In this document: positions 50,844-55,322 of the stretch, piece after piece
How the letters are laid out: each line of letters starts with the position of its first letter
How positions within the stretch are numbered: the first letter of the stretch is position 1
Origin: Salinibaculum litoreum
GTDB taxonomy: Archaea > Halobacteriota > Halobacteria > Halobacteriales > Haloarculaceae
DNA: 64,000 nucleotides
Assembly: GCA_009789175.1 (NCBI GenBank)
Contig: CP046866.1
Location: 1,488,001 to 1,552,000, forward strand
Direction: 5' to 3'
Translations under genes and position numbers: made by a program
The notes under the pieces: model-generated
What the model saw: only the letters and a program-made list of their open reading frames with translations
Database searches by the model: none
Told to the model about the DNA's origin: nothing

Positions 50844-52256
50844 GTGACAGCCACAGAACGCTTTTTGGAATCCGGATATTCAGCCCCGGACGTGTGGGCC
50901 CGGACTCCATTGCGGCGACACCGCGAGCGTGGGATTTCCCCAGTCATCGGTGTCGTCATTCTCGTCGCGATTACCGTATTGCTAGTCGCGATTGGTGGAG
51001 TGTTCTTTTTGAACCTGACAGATAACCCGACGCCGGCCCCCGAATCCTCCTTCGAGTTCGAGTACGACGAGGACACGAATGAAGTGACAGTAACAGTCGA
51101 AGCTGGCGGCCCCTTCACTGATACGAACACGGACCAGTTGGTCGTGGTCGTGGACAGCGGGAACGGCAACAGGCGCGCAGTGTGGGCCGATTCCGGTGGG
51201 AGTGTCGTCGACCTGACCAGTGGGAAACTGAGCTCCGGTCAGTCCATTACCATCGACGACGACGCCGGCAGCGACACTGGTGACAAAACGCTCTCGTTCG
51301 AACTCGAAGCGGGCGACGAGATTAGCGTCGTCTGGCTTTCGCCCGACGACGACACCACCGCACGGCTGGCGAGCGATACCGTACCGTCACTGGAGGAAGA
51401 TGCCGTCGCGCCGTTCGACCAGCCTGGCGGCATCACGACAGTCGACGATGGCGCAGCCGGCGATGGTGGGGCGAGTGTCGGAGTCGGACCAGGGAGTGCG
51501 GAAGTGCTCGGAAACACCGGCGATATCGACGGCGATGGGCGGACGGAACTCCCATACGTCGACAGTAGCGGCAATCTGCAAGTCAACGACAGCAGTGGCC
51601 AGACCGAGACGCTGGTCGATGCCAGTAGCGTCTCACAGGGTGACCCAGAGACGACGAACAGCCTGATGGCGACTGGCACCTGGAACGGAAGCGACACCGC
51701 TGTCTTCTACGCGGACGACAGCCGGAACGCCATCTATCGGGTGAGTCCAGGGGGGTCGCCCACGGAAGTCACGAGCGGTGACGGGAGTTCCAACGGTATC
51801 CAGAGCGTGCTCGGGTTCGGGGACATCGATGGCGACGGGACCGACGAACTGGTCTTTGCCGACGACTCCCAGAACGTCCAGTACCTGGACCCGGATGGGA
51901 CGAAATCGGGGAACATCTTCACCTCGACGGGCAACAACAACGGCATCGGAAATGGCCCGCTACCCGACCCCGACGGTGACGGGACCGACGAGGCAGTCGT
52001 CGTCACAGGGAGCAACGAAGTTGCCCTGGTCGATACCGGCGGCCTCGATGCAACCCTGACGAGCGGCGGGGCAGCCAAATCACCGGCAACCGCCGCCGAT
52101 GTCGACGACGACGGTAGTCTGGAAATCGTCTTCGTGGACGCCAGCGAGACGGTCAAATACGTCGATGACGTGAGCGGGTCGAACACCGAAAAACCCCTCG
52201 AAGATGAAGACGGTAACGCCGTCACTGCCGACGACGAGACAGGCGTCGTCTCGTGA
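50844..52256 (+). CDS. Type IV pilin fused to an FG-GAP/VCBS repeat domain
   Basis: A 470-aa surface protein. The archaeal prepilin signal RERG followed by ISPVIGVVILVAITVLLVAIGG (cleavage after Gly30 from the GTG at 50844, or after a 14-residue leader from a GTG at 50892) is that of class III pilins processed by PibD. A DUF1628-type pilin domain reaches about residue 170. The second half has at least four FG-GAP-like calcium motifs (DIDGDGRTEL, DIDGDGTDEL, DPDGDGTDEA, DVDDDGSLEI), forming a partial beta-propeller. The fusion suggests a pilus-tip or cell-surface adhesin. The start is uncertain. Confidence 0.8.
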   Translation: MTATERFLESGYSAPDVWARTPLRRHRERGISPVIGVVILVAITVLLVAIGGVFFLNLTDNPTPAPESSFEFEYDEDTNEVTVTVEAGGPFTDTNTDQLVVVVDSGNGNRRAVWADSGGSVVDLTSGKLSSGQSITIDDDAGSDTGDKTLSFELEAGDEISVVWLSPDDDTTARLASDTVPSLEEDAVAPFDQPGGITTVDDGAAGDGGASVGVGPGSAEVLGNTGDIDGDGRTELPYVDSSGNLQVNDSSGQTETLVDASSVSQGDPETTNSLMATGTWNGSDTAVFYADDSRNAIYRVSPGGSPTEVTSGDGSSNGIQSVLGFGDIDGDGTDELVFADDSQNVQYLDPDGTKSGNIFTSTGNNNGIGNGPLPDPDGDGTDEAVVVTGSNEVALVDTGGLDATLTSGGAAKSPATAADVDDDGSLEIVFVDASETVKYVDDVSGSNTEKPLEDEDGNAVTADDETGVVS

Positions 52257-52946: not shown

Positions 52947-53222
52947 TTAGCCACCTGCTTTTCGCTGGGCGATACGCCCGACGACCAGCCCGGCGGCTAT
53001 CATCAGCGCCGCGAGCATCGAGTAGAAGGCTGCCTGCGTGTATGCGCCTTCCTGGACGGCCACCCACGCAACCGGCAGGATGCCACCGGCGGCAAGGAAG
53101 TGCAAGCCGATGACCAGTCCGCCGACAGAGAACAGCGAGGGGAGCCACCCGTCGGACTCCGAGGGCGTCGGGTCGAGTTCCGGGTCGAGGTAGTCCTCGA
53201 TATCGTCGTCCTCGTCGGTCAC
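52947..53222 (-). CDS. Small two- or three-helix membrane protein
   Basis: A 91-aa protein beginning at a GTG (VTDEDDDIEDYLDPELDPTPSE). The N-terminus is very acidic; then two helices (LFSVGGLVIGLHFLAAGGILPVAWVAV; FYSMLAALMIAAGLVVGRI). A TTG further upstream is possible but gives a basic unusual N-terminus. It shares its end with the convergent glutaredoxin gene. No family recognised. Confidence 0.62.
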   Translation of the reverse strand: MTDEDDDIEDYLDPELDPTPSESDGWLPSLFSVGGLVIGLHFLAAGGILPVAWVAVQEGAYTQAAFYSMLAALMIAAGLVVGRIAQRKAGG

Positions 53223-53275
53223 AGGTCGGGGTAAACGACCGCCCCACAAACAAGCGTCGAAACGGGAGACGAACG

Positions 53276-55123
53276 TCAGGACCGCCGTGCGAGAACCAGG
53301 GCGGCGACCAACGTGGCGACCAGCGCCACAACAACACCAAAGCCAGGGCCGAATGCCCCGCTCGACTCCTCAGCGGTGTCGTCCTCGTCGTCCTCGTCGT
53401 CATCATCGGCACTCTGTTCGACACCGGAACGAACCTCCAGTTCGGAGACAGCGTCCTCGTGGAGACGGAAGATAGCAGTGTTGCCCCGGGTCTCGATGGC
53501 GTTCGTCTCCGTTATCTCACCGGGCATGGTGATACGGTAAGTCGATGTCCCGAGGGTTGGGTCCTCCGACGGGACCTCGATATTCGTGACCCGGAAGGTC
53601 ACCTCGTCGCCCTCACGTGTCACAGTGAGGTTTTCCGCTGCCGAGGCGTTTACCGCGACATCGAAGACCATTCGGGTCCCTTTCGCACTGTCGATATCTC
53701 TGGCGTTCCCGTACTCGGTGTAGCCCTCTTCAGTTTCAACTAGCTGGTTCGCAAGGACCTCAGCACCGGAGTCGTACCCCTGCTCCTCTGCAGTCGTCTG
53801 GAACTGCTGGTAGGTCTCGTCAGTCACGTCGAGTGAGACCGACCCCGAATCGACAGTTCCGTCACTGCCGACAGTGAGGTTGAACTGGAGGTCGAAGCCG
53901 CTCTGTTGCTGGTCGTCGTTTTGCGGGTCGTCCGGCCCGGACGTGGCATCCGTGGCGGAGGTGACACGCATCGTCGGCGGTGGGTTCCGGTGAAGTGCCC
54001 ACACCGCCACCGACCCACTCACAGTGTCGGCATTCGAGTCGATGATTCGACCCGGCATGTGGTACCGAGAGACGACACGTCCGAGTGCGGGGTCTTCGTT
54101 CGCTGTCTCGACGTTGATCGTCTCGACCGTCAATCGTCCGTTTTCGACAGTGACTGAGGTGTTCTCCGCTGCGCTCAGGTCGGCCTCGTACACAACGGTC
54201 ATCCTCGTTCCCTTCGCTGAGTCTTCAGACCTGTACTCGATGATAGCGGTCACCTCATCGTTCTGTTCGAGATAGGCGTTCGCAAACCACTCCGCGCCAC
54301 TCTCGTACCCCCGCTCGTCGGCGGCAGTCTCGAACTGCCGGTAAGATTCATCGTCGACATCCAGCGTCAGCTGATAGGCACCGATGCTGCCATCATCCGC
54401 GAAGAAGATGTCCTGTGTCCAATCCAAGCCGTCGCTTGTCTGCTGGTTGTCGTCATCTCGTTCGTTTACGGCAGACGTAGCGTCCGTCGTCGAGGCGACC
54501 ACCAGCCGAGACTGAGGGTTTTCGTGCAGCGCCCACACGGCGGTCGACCCACTCACAGCATCGGCGTTCGAGTCTGTGACTTCGCCTGGCATGTGGTAAC
54601 GATACACCACTTCCTCGACCGAGGAGTCCTCGGTCGGGTCCTGAACGTTGACCGTCTCGACGACCAACTCTCCGTTCTCGATGGCGACCGTGGTGTTCTC
54701 CGCTGCCGTCACGTCGGCATCGTAGACCAGAGTCATCGCTGTCCCCTTCGCAGTGCTTTGCGTTCCGTAGTCACGGATGGCAGTCATCTCGTCGTTCTGT
54801 TCGAGATAAAAGTTTGCCAACCACTCCGCGCCACTGTCGTATCCCTCGCTGTCGGCAGCATCCTCGAACTGCTGGTAGGATTCGTTATCGACATCGAGGG
54901 AAATCTGGAACGCCTGAATACTACCGTCGTCGTTGAACACAACGTCCTGTATCAGGGTGAAGCCCTCGCTCTCTTGCTGGCTGAACTCGTCACCGGTCGC
55001 AGCAGCCGTCCCGTTTGGTCCCTCCGCAACGGCCGGCGCTGTCGCCACTCCGAGCAATACGAGCGTCGCAGCGACGACTGTCGCCGCCAGAAGAAGTCGT
55101 CTCGCTGAGTGATGCGTTCCCAT
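53276..55123 (-). CDS. PGF-CTERM surface protein with a triplicated LppM-like domain
   Basis: A 615-aa exported protein. A Sec-type signal peptide lies at residues about 1-34. Three homologous units of 150-160 residues follow (about 53-212, 232-392, 408-560), each containing a DVVF/DIFF-DGSI...SLDV opening, a YDSGAEWLAN-type helix, a SAKGT.M..VY strand and an MPGE(V/I).xSNA...SGxxAVWALHxN ending. The last resembles the PG-V...NG-...W motif of LppM-domain lipoproteins. The C-terminus is an acidic D/E run followed by GPGFG and a hydrophobic helix ending ARRS, the archaeosortase (ArtA) anchor. Mature protein would be lipid-linked at the S-layer. Function unknown. Confidence 0.82.
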   Translation of the reverse strand: MGTHHSARRLLLAATVVAATLVLLGVATAPAVAEGPNGTAAATGDEFSQQESEGFTLIQDVVFNDDGSIQAFQISLDVDNESYQQFEDAADSEGYDSGAEWLANFYLEQNDEMTAIRDYGTQSTAKGTAMTLVYDADVTAAENTTVAIENGELVVETVNVQDPTEDSSVEEVVYRYHMPGEVTDSNADAVSGSTAVWALHENPQSRLVVASTTDATSAVNERDDDNQQTSDGLDWTQDIFFADDGSIGAYQLTLDVDDESYRQFETAADERGYESGAEWFANAYLEQNDEVTAIIEYRSEDSAKGTRMTVVYEADLSAAENTSVTVENGRLTVETINVETANEDPALGRVVSRYHMPGRIIDSNADTVSGSVAVWALHRNPPPTMRVTSATDATSGPDDPQNDDQQQSGFDLQFNLTVGSDGTVDSGSVSLDVTDETYQQFQTTAEEQGYDSGAEVLANQLVETEEGYTEYGNARDIDSAKGTRMVFDVAVNASAAENLTVTREGDEVTFRVTNIEVPSEDPTLGTSTYRITMPGEITETNAIETRGNTAIFRLHEDAVSELEVRSGVEQSADDDDEDDEDDTAEESSGAFGPGFGVVVALVATLVAALVLARRS

Positions 55124-55322
55124 GACTGGTACGACACGAAGGGGCTACAAGAAACGTGTGGTATGCGGGTATAAACAGGAATGACACCTGCACAGGTCCG
55201 ATAGACAGCCCTCCGACTGATAGGAATCAGTATCACTCTCCGACGGCCGAGGTCCCGCCTCCTGTCGTCCAAACCCACATATTAGAGACTGTCCGCTCGC
55301 GAGTTTGTCGGCCGGAAGAATA

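Follow-up and report, generated by a model that had tools for sequence, protein, structure and literature searches.

The closest described system to the one reported here is LppM (Rv2171) of Mycobacterium tuberculosis, an exported envelope lipoprotein with a single domain (structure 2nc8, Pfam family PF21946). In the parts of the LppM report drawn on here, the protein was presented as a new fold that is not homologous to any other known lipoprotein of M. tuberculosis, its 11 strands forming a pseudo-beta-barrel that is closed by a helix, and was described as binding phosphatidylinositol mannosides (PMC6151718). A transposon mutant of lppM was described, in the section cited, as trafficking to acidified phagosomes and growing in clumps (PMC2936551). 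A second relevant system is archaeosortase A (ArtA) of haloarchaea. In the portion of the work cited, the S-layer glycoprotein undergoes C-terminal processing by ArtA and is then lipid-anchored (PMC8875312). A literature search on LppM or Rv2171 with archaea, in which most subscription papers lay outside the coverage, returned no title or abstract on an archaeal LppM.

Here we describe a gene of Salinibaculum litoreum whose product belongs to the known LppM domain family, as an archaeal member that is tripled and of the ArtA type. The gene lies in a 64,000-nt stretch of DNA (GCA_009789175.1, CP046866.1, positions 1,488,001 to 1,552,000 of the forward strand), which is referred to below as the window and to which all coordinates refer. 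A genome search showed the triple-unit gene to be present as a single copy in the whole 3.73 Mb genome. The protein resembles LppM in its domain fold, its 11 strands, its sequence signature and its predicted character as an exported envelope protein. It differs in having three domains rather than one, and in having no cysteine and a PGF-CTERM end where LppM is a lipoprotein.

Architecture and repeats of the triple-unit protein

A sequence-only reading of this DNA had placed three repeats of about 160 residues between a signal peptide and an archaeosortase anchor. This layout was confirmed by the 615-aa open reading frame, by BLASTP comparison of the units and by shuffling. The features of the gene and of its surroundings were as follows.

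53276 to 55123, minus strand: complete coding sequence of 615 aa, from an ATG start and free of internal stops, for three LppM-fold units with a PGF-CTERM anchor
55022 to 55123, minus strand: N-terminal signal peptide, about residues 1-34, without a lipobox (from sequence; helix at residues 5-27 in the model)
54479 to 54967, minus strand: unit 1, residues 53-215 (BLASTP; strands and helices in the model as in unit 3; 2nc8 at Z 10.3 over residues 45-220)
54434 to 54478, minus strand: disordered linker joining units 1 and 2, residues 216-230 (pLDDT below 50)
53954 to 54433, minus strand: unit 2, residues 231-390 (BLASTP; the model shows the elements of unit 3 here too)
53900 to 53953, minus strand: disordered, Asp/Gln-rich linker joining units 2 and 3, residues 391-408 (pLDDT below 50 at 393-408)
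53420 to 53899, minus strand: unit 3, residues 409-568, with the Pfam LppM match (36.2 bits, E 8.9e-9, cut-off 27; model pLDDT 93.1; 2nc8 the top structure match)
53360 to 53419, minus strand: acidic stretch preceding the anchor, residues 569-588 (from sequence; pLDDT below 50 at 571-596)
53282 to 53359, minus strand: PGF-CTERM anchor with GPGF, a hydrophobic helix and an RR end, residues 589-614 (PF18204 and TIGR04126 above their cut-offs)
53266 to 55321, no strand: slot bounded by a 100-aa membrane ORF and tRNA-Val, filled differently in the congener (there 599 bp with another 157-aa ORF)

The units were collinear, with a pitch of 178 and 177 residues. Units 1 and 2 were identical at 98 of 160 positions (61%; BLASTP E 1.6e-74), and unit 3 shared 39-40% identity with either of the others (63/160 with unit 1, E 4.7e-37; 63/159 with unit 2, E 4.5e-38). 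When units 1 and 3 were compared without gaps, the 63 identities observed far exceeded those obtained when unit 3 was shuffled 5000 times (mean 11.6, maximum 24). Based on this test and on the units matching along their entire length, chance or low complexity was ruled out as the source of the repeats. The C-terminal signature that had been proposed for all three units (MPGE...SNA...VWALHxN) stood unchanged for unit 1 alone (MPGE..SNA..VWALHEN). Unit 2 carries MPGR in place of MPGE (MPGR..SNA..VWALHRN), and unit 3 has TNA and IFRLHED (MPGE..TNA..IFRLHED), with a Phe at the position that is Trp in the other sequences.

The signal peptide contains RR followed by LLL, which is compatible with either the Sec or the Tat route. 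There is no cysteine among the 615 residues, and the protein therefore lacks a lipoprotein-type N-terminal lipid anchor; acidic residues account for 19.5% of its composition. The PGF-CTERM end, one of eight such ends in the genome, scored 20.2 bits with Pfam (cut-off 18.8) and 25.5 bits with NCBIfam (cut-off 24.5), and archaeosortase A is encoded in the same genome (TIGR04125, 304.3 bits versus a cut-off of 75). These scores supported the archaeosortase anchor proposed from the sequence and, together with the known role of ArtA, indicated that surface display is likely. We consider it highly probable that the triple-unit protein is processed at its C-terminus and located at the surface. N-glycosylation sequons gave no signal, as the protein has 7 versus 5.0 expected and 21% of shuffles reached 7.

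Fold and family of the units

The relation to LppM that the sequence-only reading had suggested was borne out by structure prediction of a single unit. The model of unit 3, for which the alignment held 12 sequences, had a pLDDT of 93.1 and a pTM of 0.86, and showed 11 strands and two helices. A Foldseek search of this model against 350,542 chains identified 2nc8 as the top match (E 2.0e-6, TM-score 0.56), with the next match at E 1.0e-3. In addition, VIA-align over 998 chains gave 2nc8 a Z of 9.6 (141 aligned residues, rmsd 3.9, 15% identity), and it was the sole chain with a Z of at least 8. In the full-length model 2nc8 aligned on unit 1 (Z 10.3), again as the sole match with a Z of at least 8.

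Profile searches identified unit 3 as an LppM domain, both when it was scanned alone (36.2 bits versus a Pfam gathering score of 27) and when the genome was searched with PF21946 (35.1 bits). Units 1 and 2 scanned singly were not matched by the Pfam LppM model, with E allowed up to 10, and LppM was absent from the list obtained in the full-length Pfam scan of the 615-aa protein. At E up to 1, PF21946 matched 13 of the 17 sequences, units and relatives together, that make up alignment A1. Comparisons with 2nc8 by sequence were weak (E 0.08 and 0.09). The match at E 0.09, obtained with the profile of alignment A3, showed that the signature is present in 2nc8 as FPAAVTSTNGDRIEPEVVQWKL (FP..VTSTNG....VQWKL), so that [MF]P..[IV]T.[ST]N[AG]..W is common to the units and 2nc8. 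Searches of the PDB with phmmer returned no match for unit 3 alone or for the unit of an Anaerolineales relative, and no NCBIfam family was above its cut-off for the unit. The pairwise similarity is weak, and it is the sequence profile, the signature and the fold together that support kinship with LppM. These data indicated that the units have the LppM fold and belong to its family, the earlier assignment being right at both levels.

Other weak rows of the full-length Pfam scan, among them Imm51, rubrerythrin and Mis14, were below their cut-offs and mostly faded or vanished in scans of the separate units. The rubrerythrin and ferritin rows rest on a short helical stretch, and a single rubrerythrin row was left with alignment A3 (E 2.2).

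The full-length model had a pLDDT of 75.8 and a pTM of 0.41, and units 1 and 2 shared the order of strands and helices seen in unit 3. The pLDDT was below 50 at residues 25-52, 216-230, 393-408 and 571-596. As the relatives in the alignment for this model were aligned to unit 3 only, and none to units 1 and 2, the relative placement of the units says merely that no fixed packing is predicted. With its disordered linkers and its pTM of 0.41, the model fits units that are separate beads. The invariant positions of the alignment are Gly, Met-Pro and Ala, and a Trp is near-invariant. We interpreted these residues as a structural core without a catalytic set, which makes binding or structural work likelier than enzyme activity.

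Relatives and origin of the tripling

With profile A1, matches were obtained in 48 of the 391 class genomes, a minority of haloarchaea, and in 32 of 146 genomes of the family. In both lists the window's genome was the only one with more than one whole unit per frame, frames having been read in the fetched loci, which represent a part of the class matches. These loci gave 52 distinct frames, two of which were the window's own (one of them cut by the locus end), and two whole units were found in none of the other 50. Homologues with one, two or three units had been looked for in these genomes and frames, and apart from the window's protein they had one unit only. The family model PF21946 matched 8 of 292 genomes of the haloarchaeal class at E up to 0.001, with 2 over the cut-off, and thus under-reports these relatives. 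Among 150 genomes of the class that includes the Anaerolineales genome it matched 4, once each, with 2 over the cut-off. A profile search of genome contigs identified ten loci, including loci in a Methanosarcinaceae bin, an Omnitrophota bin and an Anaerolineales (Chloroflexota) bin; such single contigs of bins could be misplaced.

Two main architectures were seen among the relatives. One group of haloarchaeal proteins (L002-L006, L034, L064, L104) has a signal peptide, a unit, an acidic stretch and a PGF-CTERM end, and so shares the whole architecture of the triple-unit protein and its signature, including LHE or similar, but with one unit only; six of these proteins were 27-33% identical to unit 3. 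Another type consists of a lipobox, a unit and a PGF-CTERM-like end (e.g., L009 and L074, the latter from Haloferax elongans). These proteins are similar in the unit and the C-terminal anchor, and differ by their lipobox cysteine, the lack of LHE and their single unit. In L009, L074 and similar loci the lipobox was accompanied by a PGF-CTERM end over the NCBIfam cut-off, and their sequences suggest proteins that are possibly lipid-anchored at both ends. The bacterial-bin proteins from Omnitrophota (L077) and Anaerolineales (L078) have the MPG...SNA...W unit in common with the triple-unit protein, but each has a lipobox, one unit and no PGF-CTERM. The Anaerolineales protein, which scored 39.5 bits with PF21946, has a C-terminal membrane helix in addition to its lipobox.

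Several other frames were irregular. In L073, L106 and L107 one domain was matched in two pieces, and in L106 and L107 long acidic, glycine-rich insertions split the LppM-like unit before the signature. An apparent fusion of 731 aa (L105) appears to be frame read-through ahead of the true start. The one-unit relative L108 has an extra copy of its last 35 positions, with the WHLHE/WLLHE end of the signature partly repeated.

The sequence-only reading had proposed that units 1 and 2 are the closest pair and that they arose by stepwise duplication, and phylogenetic analysis agreed with the identities on this point. For the main tree, 60 candidate rows were reduced to 33 by removing those more than 85% alike. 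Also left out were L114 and L115, whose frames are broken, and, apart from L106-L108, rows below 60 bits, including L073 and L077. In this tree the three units formed one clade (99/96) within which units 1 and 2 grouped together (100/98); a 20-row tree of hand-picked rows gave the three-unit clade at 87/82. Since the three units form one clade and the relatives have one unit, the tripling is placed inside the protein's own lineage, and as units 1 and 2 are the closest pair within it, the stepwise duplication holds. The first duplication of a one-unit ancestor would have separated the line of unit 3 from that of units 1 and 2, which a second duplication would then have split. The latter two differed with dN 0.27 and dS 1.00 (unit 3 versus the others, dS 1.4 to 2.2), which indicated that the second duplication is old and that both copies have been under purifying selection.

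Proposed working and alternative readings

The explanation that we favor, with moderate confidence, is that of a surface protein, anchored by a lipid, which displays a loose string of three LppM-type pseudo-beta-barrels, each with a ligand or partner. The signal peptide would export the protein, and archaeosortase A would read the C-terminal PGF motif, cut off the hydrophobic helix and join the C-terminus to a membrane lipid. The three barrels would then lie bead-like between the membrane and the S-layer on short disordered acidic linkers. Each would bind an envelope partner or a ligand, either hydrophobic or a glycolipid, in the way that LppM binds phosphatidylinositol mannosides, and the three copies could raise avidity or reach. 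That the units bind some ligand or partner is reasonably probable. By analogy with mycobacterial LppM the ligand may be a lipid or glycolipid, a suggestion that we make tentatively. The sequence-only reading had likewise considered a membrane-lipid or cell-wall role possible. To our knowledge, haloarchaea do not have phosphatidylinositol mannosides of the mycobacterial kind, and the ligand must therefore differ from that of LppM.

The units could instead be spacer or adhesion domains, the tandem reaching through the S-layer or binding envelope proteins or cells with no lipid bound. The invariant Gly, Met-Pro and Ala and the near-invariant Trp are consistent with this reading in that they look like a structural core and not an active site. 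The disorder of the acidic linkers and the low pTM agree with a beads-on-a-string layout, and variation in unit number is confined to one lineage. However, the best-characterized relative, LppM, binds a glycolipid, one-unit relatives would be poor spacers, and purifying selection has been maintained on units 1 and 2, and we regard a spacer or adhesion role as possible rather than probable, at about the same likelihood as a lipid or glycolipid ligand. A very unlikely alternative is that the fold is a general beta-saddle common to the N-terminal domains of M1 aminopeptidases and to ribophorin I/Ost1, with the likeness to LppM being convergence. Ribophorin I/Ost1, M1 peptidases and the FMO protein do rank after 2nc8 in the structure searches, at Z of about 7 to 7.9, and the TM-score to 2nc8 is 0.56. 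Against convergence, unit 3 reached the curated Pfam LppM cut-off on sequence, the signature recurs in 2nc8, and the Chloroflexota lipobox protein keeps both the signature and its Pfam score of 39.5 bits.

Ost1/ribophorin I was the second-ranked fold for the single unit (Foldseek E 1.0e-3, probability 0.98; Z about 7.7). It differs from the triple-unit protein in being part of the multi-subunit eukaryotic oligosaccharyltransferase complex, and archaea have the single-subunit AglB. In the part of the Ost1 report drawn on here, two similar beta-rich luminal domains precede a single membrane helix, and Ost1 is suggested to stop the glycosylated peptide from sliding back (PMC7226087). In the full-length model Ost1 aligned over units 1 and 2 jointly (residues 55-395, 246 aligned, rmsd 15.3). 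A Z of 7 to 8 is the range of common arrangements, in which M1 peptidases and the FMO protein score like Ost1, and a Pfam scan of the 17 units at E up to 1 listed 15 families, none of them ribophorin I. It is highly improbable that the C-terminally anchored LppM-fold proteins are prokaryotic kin of ribophorin I/Ost1, with the window's tandem having arisen independently and acting on surface glycoproteins or glycolipids.

A further alternative, compatible with the fold, concerns the gene rather than the domain, namely that it is a recently acquired accessory gene (e.g., for surface variation or virus interaction) without a housekeeping role in the envelope. The triple-unit gene was absent from the congener, the one other species of the genus searched, in which the gene order is Pit transporter, BolA, glutaredoxin, 100-aa ORF, the 599 bp with the 157-aa ORF, tRNA-Val, trpD, trpF and trpE. 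The slot thus holds a different ORF there; loss in the congener is, however, an alternative to gain here, two species having been compared. The GC3 of the gene was 0.72, versus 0.82-0.84 for trpD and trpE, but the composition signal is weak, since the Pit gene, which is conserved in the congener, stood at 0.76. The units also sit on a side of the tree made up mostly of another family (f3), and the inspected members of their own family carry a lipobox, a grouping that hints at acquisition from outside. The two ends of the slot shared no word of at least 9 bases, which argues against integration at tRNA-Val. A viral origin was likewise rejected, as there was no phage match and viral structures gave nothing at E up to 0.001, and plasmid matches were limited to one record at 29% identity. 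Recent acquisition as an accessory gene is plausible but falls short of being probable.

The neighboring genes gave no pointer to envelope lipid genes, as no conserved operon partner was found in 20 loci of relatives (L070-L079 and L094-L103). In these loci, tblastn with six window neighbors (the 100-aa ORF, glutaredoxin, BolA, TrpD, the FG-GAP pilin and Pit) returned none at E up to 1e-3. Synteny among the relatives was seen in close pairs only.

The occurrence of the LppM domain as a minority surface protein in haloarchaea, in a Methanosarcinaceae bin and in bins of Chloroflexota and Omnitrophota suggests a basic function in the cell envelope rather than in infection. Haloarchaea are genetically tractable and do not have a mycolate envelope, so that the binding of the domain could be studied simply in a one-unit relative (e.g., L074 of Haloferax elongans). 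For the question of whether unit number matters, the tripled form provides a natural test.

Three other ORFs at or near the slot were observed. The 100-aa membrane ORF (52947-53249, minus strand) lies 26 bp downstream of the triple-unit gene, has no Pfam match, and is conserved in the congener (81% over 78 residues). The congener's own 157-aa membrane ORF in the slot (5919-6392 of L119, minus strand) also had no Pfam match. Between the Pit transporter gene and bolA, the window contains a gene for a protein that resembles type IV pilins (Pilin_N) and carries FG-GAP repeats (50844-52256, plus strand). The congener has about 70 bp in its place, and the pilin gene is thus a second surface gene that differs between the two species near the triple-LppM gene.
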